In this document: one piece after another, positions 18,161 through 42,470 of the stretch
Layout of the letters: every line of letters begins with the position of its first letter
How positions within the stretch are numbered: position 1 is the first letter of the stretch
NCBI RefSeq assembly: GCF_011745145.1
Contig: NZ_CP050191.1
Span: forward strand, 1,836,481-1,900,480
DNA: 64,000 nt
Source of the DNA: Mycobacterium sp. DL440
Lineage (GTDB): Bacteria > Actinomycetota > Actinomycetes > Mycobacteriales > Mycobacteriaceae
Direction of reading: 5' to 3'
Translations under genes and position numbers: made by a program
Notes under the pieces: model-generated
The model's input: the letters and a program-made list of their open reading frames with translations, nothing else
Databases searched by the model: none
What the model was told of the DNA's origin: nothing

Positions 18161-18994
18161 GTGACTGATCGCTACGGCTCCGACATCCTGTCCCGAAACC
18201 CGCACACGCCCAAGCTGACTCGATCGACCGAACAGCCTGCGGAGAAGGGCCTGGTCGTCGAGGACGCCCAGAGTGGTTACGTGGGCGCGGTGGTGCGGAT
18301 CGAGGGTGGCCGCGTCGAGCTCGAGGACCGCCGCGGCAAGGTGCGGACTTTCCCGATGGGCCCGGGCTTTTTGATCGACGGCAAGCCGGTGAGCCTCGTG
18401 GTGCCCAAGCGGGCCGCGGCACCGGCCCGCACGGCGTCAGGATCGGTCGCGGTACCCAGGGCCAAGGCGCGGGTTGCGCTGGCCAGCCGGATCTACGTCG
18501 AGGGCCGCCATGACGCCGAGCTCGTCGAGCAGGTCTGGGGCGCTGATCTGCGCATCGAAGGCGTCGTCGTCGAATATCTGGGCGGCGTCGATGACCTGGC
18601 CGACATCGTCGCGGAGTTCGCACCCGGACCGGGCCGTCGGTTGGGCGTGCTGGTCGATCACCTGGTCACCGGGTCCAAGGAGGCGCGCATCGCCGAGGCG
18701 GTGCGGCGCGGCCCCGGCGGTGAGCACACGCTGGTGGTCGGACACCCGTTCGTCGACATCTGGCAGTCGGTCAAACCGGCCCGGCTCGGGATGAAGGCGT
18801 GGCCGACCATCCCGCGCAGTGTGGAGTGGAAGCACGGTATCTGCGACGCGCTGGGCTGGCCGCACCAGGACCAGGCCGACATCGCCCGGGCCTGGCAGCG
18901 GATCCGCGGCCAGGTACGCGACTGGAACGACCTGGAGCCCGCGCTGATCGGCCGGGTCGAGGAACTCATCGATTTCGTGACCGCACCGGCGTAG
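18161..18994 (+). CDS. DUF3097 family protein, possibly TOPRIM-like
   Basis: A 277-residue actinobacterial protein. The N-terminus (DRYGSDIL) and the block GLVVEDAQSGYVGAVV with LEDRRGKVRTFPMGPGF are family features. Residues about 108-180 read as a Rossmann-like unit beginning RIYVEGRHDAELVEQVWG and ending GVLVDHLVTGSKE; the VEGxxD start resembles TOPRIM motif 1. A later HPFVDIWQSVKP segment could supply another acidic residue. TOPRIM proteins act on nucleic acids, which would suit its place just before rarA, but this is inference. GTG start at 18161 without a strong ribosome site. Confidence 0.8.
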   Translation: MTDRYGSDILSRNPHTPKLTRSTEQPAEKGLVVEDAQSGYVGAVVRIEGGRVELEDRRGKVRTFPMGPGFLIDGKPVSLVVPKRAAAPARTASGSVAVPRAKARVALASRIYVEGRHDAELVEQVWGADLRIEGVVVEYLGGVDDLADIVAEFAPGPGRRLGVLVDHLVTGSKEARIAEAVRRGPGGEHTLVVGHPFVDIWQSVKPARLGMKAWPTIPRSVEWKHGICDALGWPHQDQADIARAWQRIRGQVRDWNDLEPALIGRVEELIDFVTAPA

Positions 18995-19024
18995 ACAGTC
19001 ATGTCAGCGTGGTAAGCAGAAGAC

Positions 19025-20374
19025 GTGTCCGACAGCTTGTTCGACGTGCCCGGTGAGCCCGCACCCGCGGGTCCCGGTGCGCCGGCCCCCGCTTCGGCGC
19101 CGCTGGCGGTGCGGATGCGCCCCGCCGGCCTCGACGAGGTCGTCGGCCAGACCCATCTTCTGCAGGCCGGTTCGCCCTTGCGCCGCCTGGTGGAGGGATC
19201 CGGCGCGGCGTCGGTGATCCTCTACGGCCCACCCGGCACCGGCAAGACCACCCTAGCTTCGCTCATCTCGCAGGCCACCGGCCGCCGGTTCGAGGCGCTC
19301 TCGGCGCTGAGCGCCGGCGTCAAGGAGGTCCGCGCGGTGTTGGAAAAGGCGCGCATTGCGCTCGTTCATCACGGCGAACAGACCGTGCTGTTCATCGACG
19401 AGGTGCACCGTTTCTCCAAGACCCAGCAGGATGCGCTGCTGGCGGCGGTGGAGAACCGGGTCGTGCTGTTGGTGGCGGCCACCACGGAGAACCCGTCGTT
19501 CTCGGTGGTCGCGCCGTTGCTGTCGCGCTCGTTGATCCTGCAGCTCCAGCCGCTGACCGCGCCGGACGTCGAGACCGTGCTGCGCCGCGCGATCACCGAC
19601 CCGCGGGGTCTGGGTGGTGCGGTCGAGGTCACCGACGAGGCCGTCGAGCTCATGGTGCAGCTCTCCGCCGGCGATGCGCGGCGGGCACTCACCGCGTTGG
19701 AGGTGGCCGGTGAAACAGCCGGAGCGCCCGGTGGCGTTGTTTCCGTCGAGACCATCGAGCAGTCGTTGGACAAGGCCGCGGTGCGGTACGACCGTGACGG
19801 TGATCAGCACTACGACGTCGTCAGCGCCTTCATCAAATCGGTGCGCGGATCCGACGTCGATGCGGCGTTGCACTACCTGGCCCGGATGCTGGTGGCGGGG
19901 GAGGACCCACGCTTCGTGGCGCGCCGGCTGATGATCCTGGCCAGCGAGGACATCGGGATGGCCGATCCCACCGCGCTGCAGACCGCGGTCGCCGCCGCCC
20001 AGACCGTGCAGCTGATCGGCATGCCCGAGGCGCAGCTGACCTTGGCGCACGCGACCGTGCACCTGGCCACCGCGCCAAAGTCCAATGCGGTCACCACGGC
20101 GCTCGGTGCGGCGATGAACGACATCCGGGCCGGCAAGGCCGGATTGGTGCCTCCGCATCTGCGGGACGGTCATTATTCGGGGGCACAGAAACTCGGCAAC
20201 GCCGTGGGCTACAAATACGCCCATGACCATCCTGATGGTGTTGTGCCGCAACAGTATCCACCAGATGAACTGGTGGGGACGGACTACTACCAGCCGACCG
20301 GACGCGGATTCGAACGCGAACTCGTGACCCGGGTCGACAAGCTGCGCGCCATCATTCGCCGCGCGCGGCGCTGA
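19025..20374 (+). CDS. rarA: Replication-associated recombination protein A (AAA+ ATPase)
   Basis: A 449-residue AAA+ protein of the RarA/MgsA/WRNIP1 family. Walker A is GPPGTGKTT at about residues 67-75, Walker B FIDEVHRF follows about 50 residues later, and TTENPSFS is the family's sensor region. The C-terminal half has the tetramerisation domain ([22 protein letters not shown]). It acts at stalled replication forks. The N-terminal 25 residues are Pro/Ala-rich. GTG start at 19025. A strong terminator follows at 20383-20422. Confidence 0.95.
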
Positions 20375-34004: not shown

Positions 34005-35492
34005 TCAACAGGCTTCCGGGGGAACGAGTAGTTCCTCGGGGTGGAAGTGGTGGTTGATGGTGTCTTGGCCGGTGTCCATCAGGGGCGGGGGATGCCAGTG
34101 GATGCGGCCGGTGTCTGGATCGACACTGGTGGTCCAGCCCAGTCCGACGAGGTGGTTGTCAGGACCGCAGCTCAGGGCGAGGGCGGGGGCGTCGGTGCGT
34201 CCGCCGTGTTGCCAGTCGGCTTCGGCGTGGTGCGCCTCGCAGTAGTCTGCCGGTGCGGTGCAACCCGGGCGGGTACATCCGCGGTCTCGGTTGTAGAGCA
34301 GGAGCCGTTGCGCTTTGGTGGCCAACCGTTTGGTGCGGGCCATGTACAGGGGCTCTGCGGTGTGGTGGTCGTAGACGATGAGGTAGTGGAAACTGTGCGA
34401 TGCCAGCCGGATGAGGTCTGTCATCGGCATCCGGATGCCCGCCCCGGTGACGGCGATACCGGCTCCGGCTTCCAGTTCGGCCAGGGTGGTGGAGACGACC
34501 ACGGTGACCGGGAGGCCGCCGTGCTGGCCAAGTCGTTTGGACATCAGTAGTTCGCGCAGCGCGGCTTTGAGTGCGTCATGGTTGCGTTGCGCCTGGGTTC
34601 GCGTGTCGCGGTCGGCGGCGGCCTGCTGCTGTTGCTGAGCTTGCTGGTCTGGCGATGTGGCGGTGGTGCGGGCAGCAGCCGCCTCGGCCTCAACGTCAGC
34701 GGCTTCGGCGTCTGGGGCGTCGGGAATGTCCAGTGGGCTGGGTGTCGGGTTGTGGACCGGTTGTGGGTCACTTGGGTTGTTGATGCCCGGTGCGCCCCAC
34801 ACGCCGGTGACCGTGGTGAGATATGACGCCGCCTCGGGATCGAGCCAGCCTTCGACATGTACCAACCCGTCGGCGTCCTGTTTGCCGATACACAGCCCAC
34901 GCAGGTGTGCTGCGACATCGGGACTGTCGCCGTCCTGGTTCAGCAGGTACAGGAGTTTGTCGGCAGCGGCCTTGAGGGTTTCGGGAGTGTCGTGGGTCGC
35001 TGCGGCCACCAGGTCCGACTCGATCTGGGCGAGTTCGGCTGGGCCGACGTACTTTTCCGCTTCCACCACCGTGCGGCGGATGATCGTGATGTGTTCGGTG
35101 TTGATCGATCCTGACCGCAGCGCTTCCGCGCATGCGGGCAGCATCGGCTCCAACGCCTCGCCGGTGAGGCCATATCGCGGCCCGAGGTCTGCGGCCGCGG
35201 CCACTCTGCGCGACGCTTCCTTGCGGCTGATGCGCATCCGGGTGGCAAGGACGTCAGTCCATGACTTTCCACCGATCTCCCGTGGACTGGTCCGGGCCAT
35301 CAGCGCCGACTGGATGCGGTGATCGACCGTCGCCTGCGCTCGGGCCTGTCGCTCGCGCTCGGACTGGATAGCCAGTAACTCCGCGGTGTCGAACCCGGTG
35401 AAATCAACGTTGACGAGCGTCGTGGTCGCTGCCAGGTGGTCGGCCAGCGCGGTCTGTACCGCGCCCCGGCTCTGCGTCAACCCGACCTTCAT
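34005..35492 (-). CDS. 13E12/DUF222 family HNH endonuclease-like protein
   Basis: A protein of 495 residues from the ATG at 35490-35492; the open frame extends to 35594 but the added residues look unconserved. The N-terminal DUF222 helical region (about 30-380) contains a low-complexity stretch rich in Ala, Thr and Gln (about 290-330). The C-terminal HNH nuclease motif is CTRPGCTAPADYCEAHH with a downstream DNH-like segment (CGPDNHLV). This family is multicopy in mycobacteria and part of REP13E12 repeats, which serve as phage-like integration sites. It lies at the left edge of the nusB-pyrR accessory interval. Confidence 0.85.
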   Translation of the reverse strand: MKVGLTQSRGAVQTALADHLAATTTLVNVDFTGFDTAELLAIQSERERQARAQATVDHRIQSALMARTSPREIGGKSWTDVLATRMRISRKEASRRVAAAADLGPRYGLTGEALEPMLPACAEALRSGSINTEHITIIRRTVVEAEKYVGPAELAQIESDLVAAATHDTPETLKAAADKLLYLLNQDGDSPDVAAHLRGLCIGKQDADGLVHVEGWLDPEAASYLTTVTGVWGAPGINNPSDPQPVHNPTPSPLDIPDAPDAEAADVEAEAAAARTTATSPDQQAQQQQQAAADRDTRTQAQRNHDALKAALRELLMSKRLGQHGGLPVTVVVSTTLAELEAGAGIAVTGAGIRMPMTDLIRLASHSFHYLIVYDHHTAEPLYMARTKRLATKAQRLLLYNRDRGCTRPGCTAPADYCEAHHAEADWQHGGRTDAPALALSCGPDNHLVGLGWTTSVDPDTGRIHWHPPPLMDTGQDTINHHFHPEELLVPPEAC

Positions 35493-35760
35493 GTTTCGAA
35501 CACTAGTGCGATTGACTGACAAGAATCCGCTCTTTGGGACCGATGTGGCCAATGTGGCCGAAGTTTTTTTGAGCCGGCCCAAACGACGTTTCAATCATCG
35601 CGATTTGTAAATTCTTGTCACGGCCGAGGTGGCGCAATGCGCGCTCGAGGGAGGGTTTCGCCAGGTACCGCACGTCAGTGGGCGGCGCAATCAGTTAACC
35701 TGCGCAAACGACAGATTCGCCGCACTGCGACACCCCTGAATCGCCGCTTACCGTGAGTTC

Positions 35761-36519
35761 GTGTCGTCGCAGCCCGAAGCCCATCCCGTATCGCTGCCGA
35801 GCCGTCGTGCGCGCGCCGATCAGGCCCGCCAGGTGGCCGACGTGCTGCGCCACCAGATCTACGAAGGCACGTATGACGGCGCGCTCCCGGCCGAGGCGGA
35901 GTTGGCCGCCGAATTCTTCGTCTCCCGCAACACCGTCCGTGAAGCACTCGCGGTCCTCAAGACCGAGGGTTTGATCGACCGCGGGACCAAGGTGGGCACG
36001 CACGTGGCGGCCCGCAAGTACGATCACGGCCTCGACGCGCTGGTGGGTCTGAAAGAGACCTTCAAGGACTACGGCGACGTACGTAACGAAGTCCGTGCCG
36101 TGCAGCGACTCTCGGCCCCGCCGGCGGTGGCCCGAAAGCTGGGACTCGAGCCGGGAACTCAAGTGGTCTTCATCGAGCGCCTGCGCTACCTCGCCGATCT
36201 ACCGCTGTCGCTGGATCTGACCTACCTGGCTCCCGAAATCGGTGAGCAGGTGATCGGCCATCCGCTGGAGAGCAACGATATCTTCGCGCTCATCGAACGG
36301 GTCAGCGGGCGCCGTCTGGGTGGGGCGAGCCTTGCCCTGGAGGCGATTTCGGCCGACCCGCATTCCGCGGCGACATTGCAGGTGCCGGCCGGATCGGCGC
36401 TGCTGATGGCCGAACGGCTGACCATCCTGGATGATGGCACGCCCGTCGATCTGGAGTACATCAGGATGCGTGGTGACCGAATCGCCATGCGCGGCAACCT
36501 TATTAGGAGAGACGTATGA
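35761..36519 (+). CDS. GntR-family (HutC/UTRA) transcriptional regulator
   Basis: A 252-residue regulator. The winged helix at about residues 25-90 includes AELAAEFFVSRNTVREALAVLKTEGL; the C-terminal UTRA ligand domain (about 105-245) ends with LEYIRMRGDRIAMRG. It is the first gene of an overlapping operon: its stop overlaps the ferredoxin start. It is therefore probably autoregulatory and responds to the compound imported or processed by the operon. GTG 35761 start. The 268 bases upstream hold no gene and should contain its operator. Confidence 0.88.
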   Translation: MSSQPEAHPVSLPSRRARADQARQVADVLRHQIYEGTYDGALPAEAELAAEFFVSRNTVREALAVLKTEGLIDRGTKVGTHVAARKYDHGLDALVGLKETFKDYGDVRNEVRAVQRLSAPPAVARKLGLEPGTQVVFIERLRYLADLPLSLDLTYLAPEIGEQVIGHPLESNDIFALIERVSGRRLGGASLALEAISADPHSAATLQVPAGSALLMAERLTILDDGTPVDLEYIRMRGDRIAMRGNLIRRDV

Positions 36520-36743
36520 CGCTGGTCAATCAACGCGCCGATGTCCCGGTGACCATCGACGAGTCCCTGTGTATCGAGGGTTGCACATTGTGCGTGGACG
36601 TCTGCCCGCTTGATTCACTGGCCATCAATCCCGAGAACGGCAAGGCCTTCATGCACGTCGACGAGTGCTGGTACTGCGGGCCCTGCGCGGCCCGCTGTCC
36701 CACCGGCGCCGTCACCGTCAACATGCCCTATCTCATCCGCTAG
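36516..36743 (+). CDS. Small dicluster 4Fe-4S ferredoxin (AprB-like)
   Basis: A 75-residue ferredoxin with eight Cys in two sets: C19, C23, C26, C30 (CX3CX2CX3CP) and C51, C54, C57, C61 (CX2CX2CX3CP), enough for two 4Fe-4S clusters. The extra residue in the first set and the DECWYCGPC spacing resemble the beta subunit of adenylylsulfate reductase (AprB), shorter here because the C-terminal extension is missing. The flavoprotein at the end of the operon is the probable electron partner. ATG overlaps the GntR stop (4 bases). Confidence 0.88.
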   Translation: MTLVNQRADVPVTIDESLCIEGCTLCVDVCPLDSLAINPENGKAFMHVDECWYCGPCAARCPTGAVTVNMPYLIR

Positions 36744-36752
36744 AGGACCCCA

Positions 36753-38183
36753 GTGAAAACAGCCCTGATCGCCCTGACCACCGGCCTGACCCTCGCCGCG
36801 GCCGGATGTTCTCTCGATTCGGCGACGAAATCCTCCGACACTGTCGATGTCGTCGTCGGCTACCAGTCCAAGACCATCAACACCGTCACCGCCGGAACCT
36901 TGTTGCGCGCCCAGGGGTACCTGGAACGCCGCCTGGCCGACATCACCACCCGCACCGGCACCAAATACAACGTGACGTGGCAGGACTACGACACCGGCGC
37001 CCCGATCACCGCACAGATGGTCGCCGAGAAGATCGACATCGGTTCCATGGGCGACTACCCGATGCTCATCAACGGATCCAAGACGCAGGCCAACGAACGC
37101 GCCAAGACCGAAATCGTGTCGGTCACCGGGTACAACCCGAAGGGCGCGCTGAACATGGTTGTGGTGGCACCGGATTCGCCGGCCAAGTCATTGACCGATC
37201 TGGCCGGTAAGAAGGTCTCGGCCAGCGTCGGATCGGCCGGCCACGGCATGCTGGTGCAAGCGCTCGGCAAGGCCGGTGTCGACGCCAAGACCGGTGTAGA
37301 GGTGCTCAACCAGCAGCCGCAGGTCGGCGCGTCGTCGCTGGAATCGGGTCAGATTCAGGCACTTTCACAGTTTGTCGCGTGGCCGGGGCTGTTGGTCCAG
37401 CAGGGCAAGGCCAAGCTGCTTTACGACGGGGCCGAGCTGAACTATCCGACCTTGCACGGCGTGGTGGTGCGCCGGGCATATGCGGCCGACCATCCGGAGG
37501 TCCTCGACGCCTTTCTTCAGGCCCAACTGGATGCCACCGACTTTCTCAACACCAAGCCGTTGGAGGCGGCCCGCCTCGTAGCCGAGGGCAGTGGGCTGCC
37601 ACAGGAGGTTGTGTACCTGTACAACGGGCCGGGCGGCACCTCGTTCGACACCACGCTCAAACCGTCGCTGGTCGACGCGCTCAAGGGCGATGTGCCGTAC
37701 CTGAAGTCGATCGACAACTTCGCCGATCTCGATGTGCCCGGTTTCGTGCAGGACGGGCCGCTGCGGGCGGCGTTCTCCGCGCGCGGCCAGGACTACGACA
37801 AGGCACTGAACTCGAAAGCCAACCCGTCGGGGCTGAGCGGTACCGACCCGGTCTGCCATAGCGCCGTCGACAATCCGGCCACCGCGGGCGAACTCTGGCT
37901 GGACGGATCGGACACCACCACGGCGGCGGCGACGCCGGTCTGCCTGCTCAAGGCGATCCGGCAGGCTGAAGGCGAGGGCAAGAAGGTCCGCGCCGCCTAC
38001 GTCGCCGATGCCGAACTGGGTACCCGGTGGTTCGCCGAGAAGTCGGTGTGGGTGCGTCTGCCCGGATCGGACGCTGAAGGCTACCTACCGTTCGGAACCG
38101 AGGCCGGCGCCGAGCGCTACACCACGGCGCACCCCGGCGCGACGATCGTCGACTACCGGCAAGCGCTGGCAGGTGCGGTGTGA
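36753..38183 (+). CDS. ABC substrate-binding lipoprotein with NosL-like C-terminal domain
   Basis: A 476-residue protein, well above the usual 310-350. The signal peptide ends in a lipobox-like LAAAGC (Cys at about residue 23). Residues 30-350 form a NitT/TauT-type binding domain for nitrate-, sulfonate- or taurine-like ligands (SMGDYPMLINGS, ASVGSAGHG). From about residue 363 the sequence follows the NosL pattern: DPVCHSAVDNP (C368) in place of the CGM motif, LWLDG, TPVCLLK (C397), VRAAYVAD, a W-x-A-E-K-S segment and a final GYLPFGTEAGAERY. NosL binds copper; copper or another metal here is inference. GTG start, 9 bases after the ferredoxin. Confidence 0.85.
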   Translation: MKTALIALTTGLTLAAAGCSLDSATKSSDTVDVVVGYQSKTINTVTAGTLLRAQGYLERRLADITTRTGTKYNVTWQDYDTGAPITAQMVAEKIDIGSMGDYPMLINGSKTQANERAKTEIVSVTGYNPKGALNMVVVAPDSPAKSLTDLAGKKVSASVGSAGHGMLVQALGKAGVDAKTGVEVLNQQPQVGASSLESGQIQALSQFVAWPGLLVQQGKAKLLYDGAELNYPTLHGVVVRRAYAADHPEVLDAFLQAQLDATDFLNTKPLEAARLVAEGSGLPQEVVYLYNGPGGTSFDTTLKPSLVDALKGDVPYLKSIDNFADLDVPGFVQDGPLRAAFSARGQDYDKALNSKANPSGLSGTDPVCHSAVDNPATAGELWLDGSDTTTAAATPVCLLKAIRQAEGEGKKVRAAYVADAELGTRWFAEKSVWVRLPGSDAEGYLPFGTEAGAERYTTAHPGATIVDYRQALAGAV

Positions 38184-39040
38184 CCACCACCGACGCCGCT
38201 CCGGCTGCGGTCAGCGACCTGCCGGCCGCGCCGGAGGGGGTGCGTACACGTCCCGCGACTTCGGTCTGGCGGCACCGCCTGGTGCGTCTGGCCTCGGTGG
38301 TCAGCGCGATTGTTTTGTGGCAGCTCTTGACCTCCAACGACGTGCGGTTAGGTCTGCGGTTCGACACTCTGCCCACTGTCACCGAAATCACTGCGGCCCT
38401 GGTGAACCGGCTGGGCACCCCGGAGTACTGGCTGGACCTCGGCCAGTCGCTGATCCGGATTCTCACCGGGTTCGGTATCGCCGCGGTGGTCGGGGTGATC
38501 ACCGGAATCCTGCTGGGACGCACCGCGTGGTTCGCCGACATCTTCGGCCCGCTGACCGAACTGGCGCGGCCGATCCCGGCGATCGCCATCGTGCCGGTGG
38601 CGATCCTGCTGTTCCCCAGCGATGAGGCGGGAATCGTGTTCATCACGTTCCTGGCGGCGTACTTCCCGATCATGGTCAGCGTCCGGCATGCGGTGCGTGC
38701 CCTACCGACCATCTGGGAGGACTCGGTCCGCACCCTGGGCGGTGGTCGCCTCGACGTACTCCGTCAGGTGGTACTGCCGGGCATCCTGCCGGGGCTGTTC
38801 GGCGGCCTCTCGGTCGGAATGGGGGTGGCCTGGATCTGCGTGATCTCGGCCGAGATGATCTCGGGCCGCCTGGGCGTGGGCTACCGCACCTGGCAGGCCT
38901 ACACGGTGCTGAACTATCCCGACGTGTTCGTCGGCATCATCACGATCGGTGTGCTCGGTTTCCTCACCGCCGCGGCGGTCGAGCTGATCGGTCGCCGGGC
39001 GACCAGGTGGCTGCCGCGTGGCGGGGAGGCGACGCGATGA
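38180..39040 (+). CDS. ABC transporter permease (NitT/TauT type)
   Basis: A 286-residue inner-membrane permease with about six TM segments and the EAA loop (AVRALPTIWEDSVRTLGGGRLDVLRQVVLPGILPG, in part; EDSVRTLGGG near residue 182). It would form the channel for the substrate delivered by the upstream lipoprotein. GTG start overlaps the previous stop by 4 bases, so expression is coupled. The N-terminal 35 residues are hydrophilic. Confidence 0.9.
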   Translation: MTTTDAAPAAVSDLPAAPEGVRTRPATSVWRHRLVRLASVVSAIVLWQLLTSNDVRLGLRFDTLPTVTEITAALVNRLGTPEYWLDLGQSLIRILTGFGIAAVVGVITGILLGRTAWFADIFGPLTELARPIPAIAIVPVAILLFPSDEAGIVFITFLAAYFPIMVSVRHAVRALPTIWEDSVRTLGGGRLDVLRQVVLPGILPGLFGGLSVGMGVAWICVISAEMISGRLGVGYRTWQAYTVLNYPDVFVGIITIGVLGFLTAAAVELIGRRATRWLPRGGEATR

Positions 39041-39786
39041 GCGCAACATTGGCCGGCACGGGAATGCGGCTGGAACTCGATCGAATCCGGCTGTCCTACA
39101 CCGGCACTCCGGTGATCGAGGACCTGAGCCTCACCGTGCAGCCCGGCGAGATCCTCGTGCTCACCGGTCCGTCGGGCTGCGGTAAGTCCACGCTGCTGCG
39201 CGCGTTGACCGGACTACTGCGGCCAGACGGCGGCCGGGTGCTGGCCGACGGCGATCCCGTCACCACCACCTCACGCGACCGCGGCATGGTGTTCCAGGAC
39301 AGCGCGCTGCTGCCGTGGCGCACGGTGCGGTCCAATATCGAACTGGCCCTGCAGTTGCGGGGAGAACCGAAAGCCGGTCGTCGGGAGCGGGCCGATCGCT
39401 GGATCGCCGAAGTCGGTCTGTCCGGATTCGCCGACTTCCTGCCGAAGAGCCTCTCCGGAGGTATGCGGCAGCGGGTCCAGCTCGCCCGCGGGCTGGCCGG
39501 TGCACCCCGTGCGGTCATGATGGACGAGCCGTTCGCCGCGCTGGACACGCAGACCCGGGCGGCCATGCAGCGGCTGCTGATCGACACCTGGAAGGCCCAT
39601 CCGACGACAATCGTGTTCGTCACCCACGACGTCGACGAGGCGCTCACACTGGGTGACCGTGTTGCCGTGCTCGGCCGCGCCGGGCAACCGTTACGCGCGC
39701 TCATCGAGGTGGGCCAGCCCCGAACCGACCATCCCGAACGATCCGCGCTGCGCGCCGAGATCATTGCCGCCCTGGAGCAACCGTGA
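39037..39786 (+). CDS. ABC transporter ATP-binding protein (NitT/TauT type)
   Basis: A 249-residue ATPase. Walker A GPSGCGKST (residues 44-52), signature LSGGMRQRVQLARGL, Walker B VMMDEPFAALD, and switch His in FVTHDVDEA are all intact. The ATG at 39037 overlaps the permease stop (ATGA); the frame upstream to 39007 is internal to the permease. The gene overlaps the flavoprotein gene by 4 bases. Confidence 0.93.
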   Translation: MSATLAGTGMRLELDRIRLSYTGTPVIEDLSLTVQPGEILVLTGPSGCGKSTLLRALTGLLRPDGGRVLADGDPVTTTSRDRGMVFQDSALLPWRTVRSNIELALQLRGEPKAGRRERADRWIAEVGLSGFADFLPKSLSGGMRQRVQLARGLAGAPRAVMMDEPFAALDTQTRAAMQRLLIDTWKAHPTTIVFVTHDVDEALTLGDRVAVLGRAGQPLRALIEVGQPRTDHPERSALRAEIIAALEQP

Positions 39787-42470
39787 CTGAACTGACCGAG
39801 ATCCCCGACGTAGACGACGCGATCCGGATCGACTGCGACGTGCTGGTGATCGGCGGCGGCACCGCGGGCACCATGGCGGCGCTGACCGCCGCCGAGAACG
39901 GTGCCCAGGTGCTGCTTTTGGAGAAAGCCCATGTTCGGCACTCCGGAGCGCTGGCCATGGGCATGGACGGCGTCAACAACGCCGTCATCCCCGGCAAGGC
40001 CGAACCCGAGGACTACGTCGCCGAGATCACGCGCGCCAACGACGGAATCGTCAACCAGCGCACCGTCTATCAGACCGCCACCCGTGGATTCGCCATGGTG
40101 CAGCGGCTGGAGCGGTACGGGGTCAAATTCGAGAAGGACGAGCACGGTGAGTACGCCGTACGGCGCGTGCACCGATCGGGCTCCTATGTGCTGCCGATGC
40201 CCGAGGGTAAGGACGTCAAGAAGGCGCTGTACCGGGTGCTGCGGCAACGGTCCATGCGCGAGAAGATCCGGATCGAGAACCGGTTGATGCCGGTACGCGT
40301 GCTCACTGATCAGGGCCGCGCGGTCGGTGCGGCCGCATTCAACACCCGTACAGGCGAATTCGTCACTGTGGCGGCGAAGGCCGTGATCCTGTCCACCGGG
40401 GCGTGCGGTCGCCTCGGGCTACCCGCGTCCGGGTATCTGTACGGCACCTACGAGAACCCGACGAACGCCGGCGACGGGTACGCCATGGCCTACCATGCCG
40501 GCGCCGAACTCTCCGGAATCGAGTGCTTCCAGGTCAATCCGCTGATCAAGGACTACAACGGCCCGGCGTGCGCGTATGTGGCCAACCCGTTCGGCGGTTA
40601 TCAGGTCAATGCGCTGGGGGAGCGGTTCGTCGACTCCGACTACTGGTCGGGTCAGATGATGGCCGAGGTCAAGGAGGAGATCGAATCGGCCCGCGGACCG
40701 ATCTACCTGAAGGTCAGCCACCTGCCCGATGAAACACTGTCCACGCTGGAGAACATCCTGCACACCACGGAACGGCCCACCCGGGGAACGTTCCACGCCA
40801 ACCGGGGGCACGACTACCGCACCCACGATATCGAGATGCACATCTCCGAGATCGGTTTGTGCTCAGGGCATTCCGCGTCGGGCGTGTGGGTGGACGAGCA
40901 TGCCCGCACCACGGTGCCCGGCCTCTACGCGGCCGGCGACCTGGCGTGTGTACCGCATAACTACATGATCGGGGCCTTCGTCTACGGCGACCTCGCCGGT
41001 GAGCATGCCGCCACGACGCTGACGGAAGTGGCTGCACCGGTTGAGCTTCCCGCCGATCAGGTGGCGCAGGCGCACGAGCTGATCTACCGCCCGCTGCGGC
41101 ACCCGAACGGCCCGCCGCAGCCGCAGGTCGAGTTCAAGCTGCGCCGGTTCGTCAACGACTATGTGGCGCCGCCGAAGACCGCCACCAAGCTTTCGATCGC
41201 GGTACAGACCTTCGAGCGCATGGCCGTCGAGGTCGAGGGTATCGGGGCGCGTACCCCGCACGAGTTGATGCGTGCCGCCGAGGTGTCCTTCATCCGTGAT
41301 TGCGCGGAGATGGCGGCCCGGTCCTCGTTGACCCGGACCGAATCCCGTTGGGGCCTCTACCACGAGCGCGCCGATCTGCCACAGCGGGACGATCAGGAGT
41401 GGCGCTACCACCTCAACCTCTACAAGGACGCCGATGGTGCCATGCAGTTCGTGAAGCGGCCCGTGGCACCGTATTTCGTCGCGGTGCCCGAGCTGGACCA
41501 CCTGACTTCGCAGGATCCCGTGACAAGAGTCGAACAACCCCACCTGCACGGCGGCCGGGCTCCGGCAGCCGAGCACTCCCGGGTCCGCCCGACCTCATCC
41601 GTGCAGCCGCCGTCACCTCGCATCGTCGCGGTGCTGGCGTTGGAGGAGCCCACACTGGAGGATCTGAACACCTACCTGACCGACCGCGACGCCGGCGTGC
41701 GCCGTACCGCGGTGGCCACCCTCGTCGAGCATCTGCCCGACGGATACCAGCCCGCGCTGGTGGCCGCCCTGGCCGACGACGACGCCGAGGTACGGCGAGA
41801 AACCGCCGATGCGGTTCGCGAACTCGTCGAGGTCCTGCCCGACCCGGCTGCTTTCGTCGACCGCTTGGACTCCTCCGACCCGGTGGTCCGCGCGGCCACG
41901 GTGTACCTGTCGAGTTCCCGGCGCGTCGGCAGCGCCCAGGCGTACCGGGCCGCGTCGACCGACGTCGATCACCGGGTTCGGATCGAGGCGGTCCGAGCGC
42001 TGGTGTCGGTCGACGACCACGCCGGGGTCGCAGTGGCCACCACCGATGAGAACCGGGAGGTGCGGATCGCCGCGGTGGGCGGCCTGGCGACGCTGCGGGC
42101 CGGCGCCGACACGGTGCGGGTGGCGTTGGACGATCCCGATCCGCTGGTGCGGGCGGCGGCGCTGGCGTCCCTCGGCGCGGTCGGATGCACCGACGACGAC
42201 GTGGTCAGCGTCGAGAAGGCGTTCACCGAATCGGCCTGGCAGATCCGCCAGGGCGCGGCGCGGGCGCTGGCCGGGGCGCTGCCCGAGGTGGCCGTCCCGA
42301 CCTTGTCACGGGCGCTCGAGGATCAGCACCTCGATGTCCGCAAGGCCGCGGTGCTGAGCCTGAGTCGGTGGGCCGATTCGGAGACGGCGGCGCGTCAGGC
42401 GCTGACCGTGGCGCTGGACGACAGTGACGCCGATGTGCGCGCCTACGCGCGGCAGGCGCTAGCTGGTTGA
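39783..42470 (+). CDS. AprA-like FAD flavoprotein fused to HEAT repeats
   Basis: An 895-residue protein. Residues 1-600 are a fumarate reductase/adenylylsulfate reductase alpha-type flavoprotein: FAD-binding GGGTAG (24-29), HSGALAMGMDGVN, and LYAAGDLACVPHNYMIGAFVYG near residue 390, all closer to AprA than to SdhA. From about residue 612 to the end are roughly nine HEAT/PBS-lyase-type repeats of about 30 residues (DRDAGVRRTAVATL, DDDAEVRRETADAV, DDPDPLVRAAALASL and so on). The repeats are expected to bind a protein partner, perhaps the ferredoxin or a substrate enzyme. Substrate unknown. GTG start coupled to the ATPase gene. Confidence 0.87.
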   Translation: MTELTEIPDVDDAIRIDCDVLVIGGGTAGTMAALTAAENGAQVLLLEKAHVRHSGALAMGMDGVNNAVIPGKAEPEDYVAEITRANDGIVNQRTVYQTATRGFAMVQRLERYGVKFEKDEHGEYAVRRVHRSGSYVLPMPEGKDVKKALYRVLRQRSMREKIRIENRLMPVRVLTDQGRAVGAAAFNTRTGEFVTVAAKAVILSTGACGRLGLPASGYLYGTYENPTNAGDGYAMAYHAGAELSGIECFQVNPLIKDYNGPACAYVANPFGGYQVNALGERFVDSDYWSGQMMAEVKEEIESARGPIYLKVSHLPDETLSTLENILHTTERPTRGTFHANRGHDYRTHDIEMHISEIGLCSGHSASGVWVDEHARTTVPGLYAAGDLACVPHNYMIGAFVYGDLAGEHAATTLTEVAAPVELPADQVAQAHELIYRPLRHPNGPPQPQVEFKLRRFVNDYVAPPKTATKLSIAVQTFERMAVEVEGIGARTPHELMRAAEVSFIRDCAEMAARSSLTRTESRWGLYHERADLPQRDDQEWRYHLNLYKDADGAMQFVKRPVAPYFVAVPELDHLTSQDPVTRVEQPHLHGGRAPAAEHSRVRPTSSVQPPSPRIVAVLALEEPTLEDLNTYLTDRDAGVRRTAVATLVEHLPDGYQPALVAALADDDAEVRRETADAVRELVEVLPDPAAFVDRLDSSDPVVRAATVYLSSSRRVGSAQAYRAASTDVDHRVRIEAVRALVSVDDHAGVAVATTDENREVRIAAVGGLATLRAGADTVRVALDDPDPLVRAAALASLGAVGCTDDDVVSVEKAFTESAWQIRQGAARALAGALPEVAVPTLSRALEDQHLDVRKAAVLSLSRWADSETAARQALTVALDDSDADVRAYARQALAG

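Follow-up and report, generated by a model that had tools for sequence, protein, structure and literature searches.

The 64,000-nucleotide stretch of the Mycobacterium sp. DL440 genome analysed here (hereafter the window; positions 1836481-1900480 of a 6.38-Mb single-contig genome) contains, at 35761-42470, six plus-strand genes coding for a regulator, a ferredoxin, a three-component ATP-binding cassette (ABC) importer and a flavoprotein. We propose that this operon imports a sulfonate-type compound and reduces it with an enzyme resembling the adenylylsulfate (APS) reductase AprAB, probably freeing sulfite by flavin-N5 chemistry; we hold this reading tentatively, as one that falls a little short of an even chance. 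Two of its parts stand more firmly on the sequence comparisons: there is good support for a two-subunit, AprAB-like reductase whose pocket is new, and some for the assignment of the importer to a sulfonate. The operon may thus be an unrecognised sulfur-release route, built on a relative of APS reductase with a different active site.

The six genes form one real operon. An initial annotation, made from the letters of the window, had placed six overlapping or nearly touching genes here, and their coordinates and the Pfam and NCBIfam matches bear this out. The successive junctions are a 4-bp overlap, a 9-bp gap, a 4-bp overlap, a 34-bp overlap between permease and ATPase (4 bp if the ATPase starts at ATG 39037) and a 4-bp overlap. 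A genome scan for flavoprotein relatives gave 587 encoded relatives, of which the best 80 were retained, all actinobacterial by their titles. Six of these 80 loci did not reach far enough for gene order to be assessed. Among the 74 with 4.2 kb or more of sequence ahead of the flavoprotein gene, the order and strand of the six genes are kept, with gaps below 300 bp, in 71, which argues that the arrangement has been selected rather than having arisen by chance. The remaining three (L085, L091 and L105) have gaps of 1.5-4.8 kb within the operon, perhaps insertions. The importer and the AprAB-like redox pair, taken as a unit in the initial annotation, are thus kept together across relatives. To its inventory of six genes, which stands, we add helical repeats at the C-terminus of the flavoprotein, a possible NosL-like end of the substrate-binding protein (SBP) and a conserved upstream element.

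The flavoprotein belongs to families already present in NCBIfam. It scores 1705.5 bits with NF010374 (PRK13800; cut-off 1196) and 880.6 bits with NF006131 (PRK08275; cut-off 587), both models being named 'fumarate reductase/succinate dehydrogenase flavoprotein subunit'. It falls below the cut-offs of the models for succinate dehydrogenase/fumarate reductase (SDH/FRD; TIGR01812, 159.4 bits, cut-off 567.3) and for AprA (TIGR02061, 140.9 bits, cut-off 641.75). Its closest solved relative is the alpha subunit of a 3'-phosphoadenylylsulfate (PAPS) reductase (8a8o_A, E 3e-62; hereafter MtPAPSR), followed by AprA. The term 'undescribed' in the initial annotation fits, within the literature searched, the function of the operon and not the flavoprotein, which is filed under a name that its residues do not support. 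The AlphaFold2 (AF2) model is poor in the catalytic part, with a mean predicted local distance difference test (pLDDT) score of 59.7, and was left unused there; further on it shows helical HEAT repeats beginning at residue 612.

A comparison of the residues around the flavin adenine dinucleotide (FAD) with the substrate ligands of AprA, suggested in the initial annotation, gave a mixed outcome. We aligned 89 family members (that of the window and those of 88 loci, which are not independent of one another) with AprA and MtPAPSR, taking residue roles at the site for APS and adenosine monophosphate (AMP) from the portions of PMC2211403 at hand, and those of MtPAPSR from an equally partial text of PMC10322725. 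In AprA, the sulfate is contacted at O1 by Asn74 and at O2 by His398, the presumed acid, while His446 lies near the phosphate and ribose (PMC2211403); their counterparts Asn65, His363 and His392 are kept in 89/89. By contrast, Arg265 (Leu254 here), Trp234 (Tyr223), Arg317 (Met292), Gly274 (Cys263), Tyr95 (Glu81) and Leu278 (Ala in 86, Thr in three) are replaced in every member, and Ala or Ser occupies the place of Val273. In AprA, Arg265 and Trp234 lie at the sulfo group, and Arg317 and Leu278 clamp the adenine. Of the seven AMP-side residues that the available text of PMC2211403 names, six are replaced, His446 alone being kept. Likewise, Arg121 and Ser122 of MtPAPSR, proposed in what we have of PMC10322725 to serve the 3'-phosphate, give way to Tyr135 and Val136 in all 89. 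A smaller alignment puts a gap rather than Met at the place of Arg317, with no Arg there in either alignment. Since three actinobacterial AprA/PAPSR-like flavoproteins (L037-L039) retain Arg265, Trp234 and Arg317, the replacements are not an alignment artefact. The L-aspartate oxidase of the host, used as a control, has Leu at the place of Asn74 and His at that of His398, so that Asn74, unlike His398, sets the AprA branch apart within the superfamily. A distant relative from the same genus (L023, genome G033) lacks both Asn74 and His398 and has a ferredoxin nearby.

By these residues, the flavoprotein has no pocket for APS/PAPS and none for succinate/fumarate. Beside the flavin it retains a pair of the direct sulfo-contacts known from AprA, set in a new, invariant lining, and the third, water-mediated contact (Arg265 and Trp234) is lost. 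The resemblance to AprA claimed earlier hence holds for the fold and for part of the active site, and fails for the binding of APS. Assignments as an APS/PAPS reductase, on residues and cut-off, and as an SDH/FRD, on the missing HPT motif, the missing Arg at the place of Arg317 and the cut-off, were both rejected. As for the former motif, the five members displayed read QVNPL or QINPL where the host L-aspartate oxidase has QFHPT, which we take to be an SDH/FRD feature.

Could the flavoenzyme instead act on carbon? It might reduce or oxidise the carbon skeleton of an imported sulfonate, in the manner of fumarate or urocanate reductases, the C-S bond being cut elsewhere. The fold family does hold many flavoenzymes with carbon substrates, the E-C-F-Q-x-N-P stretch aligns with E-F-V-Q-F-H-P of the host L-aspartate oxidase, and the absence of AprA Arg265 and Arg317 would suit such an activity. 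However, the HPT motif is absent as well, the Asn that is Leu in the control is invariant in the family, and a beta-like ferredoxin is a feature of AprB and PAPS reductases. We consider this alternative unlikely.

The ferredoxin had been regarded as an electron carrier. It looks rather like a shortened beta subunit of the enzyme than like a loose carrier, although several polyferredoxins score higher than AprB and MtPAPSR beta among its solved relatives; with TIGR02060 (AprB) it reaches 30.4 bits, below the cut-off of 135.65. The 84 relatives found in the 88 loci (those without a find are mostly cut contigs) all have eight Cys residues, a CWxC..C...CP motif and a P[YF]L[LIM][RK] C-terminus. 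A Trp residue that transfers electrons is reported in the available portions of the sources for AprB (Trp-B48; PMC2211403) and for MtPAPSR (Trp42; PMC10322725). The ferredoxins of the PAPSR-like L037 and L038 have CWDC at the same aligned place as CWYC in the operon. Trp52 of CWYC is taken to be the electron-transfer Trp, the CWxC motif presumably being where AprB holds Trp-B48. Likely donors encoded beside some relatives point to an electron flow into the flavoprotein: FdxA and a ferredoxin-NADP+ reductase (FNR) in Methylobacterium, and a FAD oxidoreductase in Acidithiobacillus. The latter, a 1153-residue protein whose sole Pfam match is Pyr_redox_2, is encoded on plasmid pTcM1 of Acidithiobacillus caldus (L134, 10324-13785) next to FdxA and the flavoprotein cluster.

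The initial annotation left the imported compound as organosulfur, organonitrogen or an oxyanion. Reductive handling of an import remains the best reading, and the sequence, fold and ligand residues of the SBP favour a sulfonate among these options. The best NCBIfam match of the SBP is the SsuA family (TIGR01728, 124.6 bits, below the cut-off of 163.5), and its profile matches four solved sequences, all SsuA or TauA; one of them, 3e4r, is titled SsuA even though its molecule is named 'nitrate transport protein'. The closest folds to the AF2 model (mean pLDDT 85.7) are again SsuA and TauA, with CmpA/CmpC, NrtA and Thi5 close in score, in a search that barely covered residues after 356 and is silent on the NosL-like part. 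TauA grips the sulfonate with the side chain of Gln30 and with the main chain at Gly61, Gly79 and Thr132, as described in the accessible part of PMC6906117. In an alignment of 81 SBPs (that of the window and 80 of the 84 found, L053, L058, L105 and L121 being excluded for length), the corresponding places are Q38 (81/81), G82 (81/81), G100 (78/81, Ala in three) and Ala162 (78/81, Thr in three), the last next to Ser161 (81/81). We take Q38 to be the counterpart of Gln30 by motif position rather than from the printed alignment. The ligands of the taurine amine, Glu106 and Asp205, are Asn134 and His235 in all 81. As for the other importer components, the permease falls below every cut-off of the NtrB, SaoP, SsuC and TauC models of NCBIfam, and the best model for the ATPase is the taurine ATPase (208.8 bits, below the cut-off of 357). 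A match to the NosL domain (PF05573) below the cut-off of 24 came up with the C-terminal piece alone (17.6 bits, E 0.005) and is unlisted for the whole SBP. Among eight further SBPs, the five non-actinobacterial ones gave a match (E 1e-6 to 0.11) and the three actinobacterial ones did not; one of the five, L124, exceeds the cut-off (29.3 bits).

It is conceivable that the ligand is another compound of the NMT1 type, such as a nitrate-like oxyanion, an organonitrogen compound or a thiamine precursor, with the enzyme acting as the reductase for it. The ligands of NMT1-type proteins are diverse, the CmpA/CmpC, NrtA and Thi5 folds are close in score, and an Aquabacterium relative has ammonium transporter and GlnK genes downstream. 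Nevertheless, the solved matches are all SsuA or TauA, the best NCBIfam family is SsuA, and the residues that hold the sulfonate are conserved, which makes such a ligand rather improbable.

The coordinates of the operon features are collected in Table 1.

Table 1. Features of the operon and its upstream region, in window coordinates
Feature	Position	Strand	Basis
Direct repeats GGTGGCGCAAT (35628-35638) and GGCGGCGCAAT (35681-35691), with CCAGGTACC (35661-35669) between	35628..35691	+	In-register spacing 53 bp
Possible -10 box TACCGT, just before the GntR GTG start	35749..35754	+	By eye; similar boxes recur there
GntR-UTRA regulator, 252 residues	35761..36519	+	Pfam UTRA 105.5 bits, GntR 55.4 bits
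2x[4Fe-4S] ferredoxin, AprB/PAPSR-beta-like, 75 residues, Trp52 in CWYC	36516..36743	+	Pfam Fer4 families
SBP, 476 residues, NMT1/SsuA-TauA domain, probable lipoprotein by eye	36753..38183	+	Pfam, NCBIfam, fold, ligand residues
Possible NosL-like domain at the SBP C-terminus, residues about 373-466	37869..38150	+	PF05573 match below cut-off
ABC importer permease, SsuC/TauC/NtrB type	38180..39040	+	PF00528 62.8 bits
ABC importer ATPase, start 39007 or ATG 39037	39007..39786	+	PF00005 118.6 bits
FAD flavoprotein, 895 residues, AprA/PAPSR-alpha-like over residues about 1-575, with fused HEAT repeats	39783..42470	+	NF010374, 8a8o_A and AprA matches
HEAT-repeat C-terminal part of the flavoprotein	41616..42467	+	HEAT_2 88.8 bits; AF2 helical repeats

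The best NCBIfam match of the regulator is PhnF (101.1 bits, below the cut-off of 156.8). The direct repeats upstream of its gene follow GGYGGCGCAAT, with CAGGT or CTGGT between them, and lie 53 or 54 bp apart in register in 49 of the 74 upstream regions examined. In the host genome, the full pair is unique to the operon, two other matches to the pattern being unlike it, and no Rfam family matched in 35400-35900. A different regulator, a LysR protein fused to an NMT1 domain, adjoins three cyanobacterial plasmid copies, L124 (6307-8343), L131 and L138; its domains were found by Pfam in L124 and by homology in the other two. Of the 77 actinobacterial loci in which an SBP was found, 76 give a tblastn match of this protein to the operon SBP, which would fit direct sensing of the imported ligand by these LysR-NMT1 regulators.

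The flavoprotein has a patchy presence, as read from counts in related genomes and across the phylum. In 61 genomes (the host and its relatives, of 22 genera), it is matched in 15, 14 of them above the cut-off and all within one genus. Close to the host genome are Mycolicibacterium septicum and relatives, in which the flavoprotein is 95% identical. In one genome (G031), the gene is in two open pieces (L022 and L024), one with an in-frame TAA, and is perhaps decaying. A draw of 396 genomes from the phylum gave 15 matches at E 1e-80, 12 of them above the PRK08275 cut-off. More broadly, 6234 proteins match at E 1e-30 among 7999 candidates scored, not all of them necessarily of the same family. 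The actinobacterial fused form makes up a clade of 12 rows with 100/100 support in a tree that was used for this clade only and has very long branches elsewhere (L023, AfAprA and MtPAPSR).

Relatives in which the HEAT part is a separate gene sit on plasmids of Proteobacteria and Cyanobacteria. A plasmid collection held 54 records matching at E 1e-30, of which 48 share 54% identity or more with the query over upwards of half its length, five are partial, and one, from Ilyobacter (24%), carries an APS reductase annotation. We retrieved 19 plasmid regions, 17 of them with gene annotation (L128 and L130 being without); the gene tables are incomplete, making absences soft. A ferredoxin is present in all 17, the three importer genes in 14, HEAT as a separate gene in 16 and the fused actinobacterial form in one, from Tsukamurella. 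Genes of the DUF971/GBBH-like or Mrp/NBP35 type occur in 12 of the 17, and one of the Mrp proteins has a FeS_assembly_P domain in Pfam; the DUF971 family is presumably tied to Fe-S assembly.

As to the setting of the operon, it is flanked at one end by genes for EF-P, NusB and a DUF222 protein and at the other by genes for an aldehyde dehydrogenase and a LuxR-type regulator. The DUF222 gene (34005-35594) is read in the reverse direction and separates nusB from the operon. The initial annotation noted no ATP sulfurylase, sulfite reductase or Qmo genes alongside, and indeed none of these, nor APS kinase or any other sulfate-reduction protein, was found among the ten flanking window proteins scanned. 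Neighbour clustering over 79 actinobacterial loci yielded 114 recurrent clusters besides the four main operon ones; the ten that were scanned are a beta-lactamase family, an Orn/Lys/Arg decarboxylase, three pyrimidine-pathway genes, one pyrR-like, and GNAT, NusB, NAD-epimerase-like and acyl-CoA dehydrogenase genes. Luciferase-like monooxygenase (LLM) genes, for flavin mononucleotide monooxygenases, occur in 5/80 actinobacterial loci, which is no enrichment because the host has 46 such matches in 6.4 Mb, compared with 1.6 Mb for the 80 loci. In three Nocardia loci, another SsuA-like gene follows the operon at a distance of 6-8 kb (L088, about 19032-19700; L091, about 19444-20334; L096, about 18285-19160).

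Sulfur-related genes near the plasmid copies are of several types. TauE/SafE genes lie near 4/17 and YeiH-type exporter genes near 3/17 annotated loci, and a TSUP gene is found some 7 kb from the Acinetobacter copy. The Cupriavidus copy is adjoined by acyl-CoA-dehydrogenase-like, NtaA/DmoA-like and SsuA-type genes, and that of Sinorhizobium by LLM genes. Weighing against this, sulfur genes that adjoin the operon are few, and actinobacterial flanks have none of this kind beyond a few loci. The exporters might also indicate that the module protects from, or recycles, sulfite or other toxic sulfur species rather than serving sulfur assimilation. An importer would be odd for detoxification, however, and in the 80 actinobacterial loci TauE homologues are found in none and YeiH in one, so we regard this as quite improbable. 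Finally, that the enzyme is an assimilatory APS/PAPS reductase whose importer carries sulfate is scarcely credible: the nearest solved protein is indeed the Methanothermococcus PAPS reductase alpha subunit (PMC10322725, available in part), but the places of Arg317, Arg265, Trp234, Leu278 and MtPAPSR Arg121/Ser122 are replaced throughout, the TIGR02061 score is far below its cut-off, and the host already has three proteins of the CysH/CysD family (PF01507). Together with its SsuD-like proteins (the best at 440 bits, below the cut-off of 518), these indicate that the host probably has other means of assimilating sulfate and some sulfonates.

If sulfonate reduction is the role of the operon, the SBP would take the compound by its SO3 head, and the permease and ATPase would bring it into the cell. 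There, the flavoprotein and the beta-like ferredoxin, of the AprAB/PAPS reductase line, would reduce it. The electrons would come from an NAD(P)H-ferredoxin system of the cell and reach the FAD by way of both [4Fe-4S] clusters and then Trp52. The flavin N5 would most likely attack the sulfur, the organic part departing where AMP departs in APS reductase, and sulfite would be freed for assimilation; we hold sulfite release by such an attack to be plausible without being probable. The HEAT part would probably serve as an assembly or docking surface, and the GntR-UTRA regulator probably senses the substrate or a product. It is tempting to speculate further that the operon encodes a widespread, oxygen-independent 'reductive desulfonase' of actinobacteria, proteobacteria and cyanobacteria, filed as a fumarate reductase: an AprAB-related enzyme with its own sulfonate importer that keeps the direct sulfo-contacts of APS reductase, most of the AMP pocket having been exchanged to suit the leaving group of an organic sulfonate (or of an S-, N- or O-sulfo compound). 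This fuller proposition we regard as rather doubtful. If true, a ferredoxin-driven reductive route would add a new branch to sulfur assimilation in common actinobacteria, rhizobia, relatives of Burkholderia and cyanobacteria, and would exemplify an APS-reductase-like enzyme re-aimed at a new leaving group. It would also correct a function name borne by many proteins.

We found no paper on this operon in the literature searched, which excludes most subscription journals and all bioRxiv preprints. The available part of PMC4505118 names SsuD-type genes and not the present operon, and PMC13352529, seen in excerpt, proved a false match to 'apramycin'. Among known systems, the flavoprotein is a member of PRK13800/PRK08275, but its residues do not back the function name of that family. 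MtPAPSR (8a8o, Methanothermococcus thermolithotrophicus) is the closest solved alpha subunit, and a short ferredoxin with eight Cys and CWxC is common to the operon and to L037/L038. Its Arg237, Arg276, Trp206 and loop residues Arg121 and Ser122 are not kept, however, and the operon adds the HEAT part and an importer, with no ATP sulfurylase or APS kinase among the ten flanking proteins. AprAB shares the FAD fold, the 2x[4Fe-4S] partner, the equivalents of Asn74, His398 and His446 and the CWxC motif; in the operon, six of seven AMP-side residues and Trp234 are replaced, and neither Qmo nor Sat is among those ten proteins. The isethionate reductase IsrBHDK of Rhodobacter capsulatus, as described in the accessible part of PMC11423573, offers a functional likeness, namely metal-cluster-driven sulfite release from an imported sulfonate; it is a nitrogenase-like enzyme with a radical SAM enzyme, and we claim no sequence relation. 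The nearest importers by sequence and SBP fold are SsuABC and TauABC, whose sulfonate-holding residues are kept in the operon SBP, although the latter adds a putative NosL-like domain and lacks the taurine amine ligands. In Escherichia coli, imported sulfonates are desulfonated by the oxygenases SsuD and TauD (PMC6906117, in the portion at hand), whereas the partner of the importer in this operon is an Fe-S flavoenzyme.

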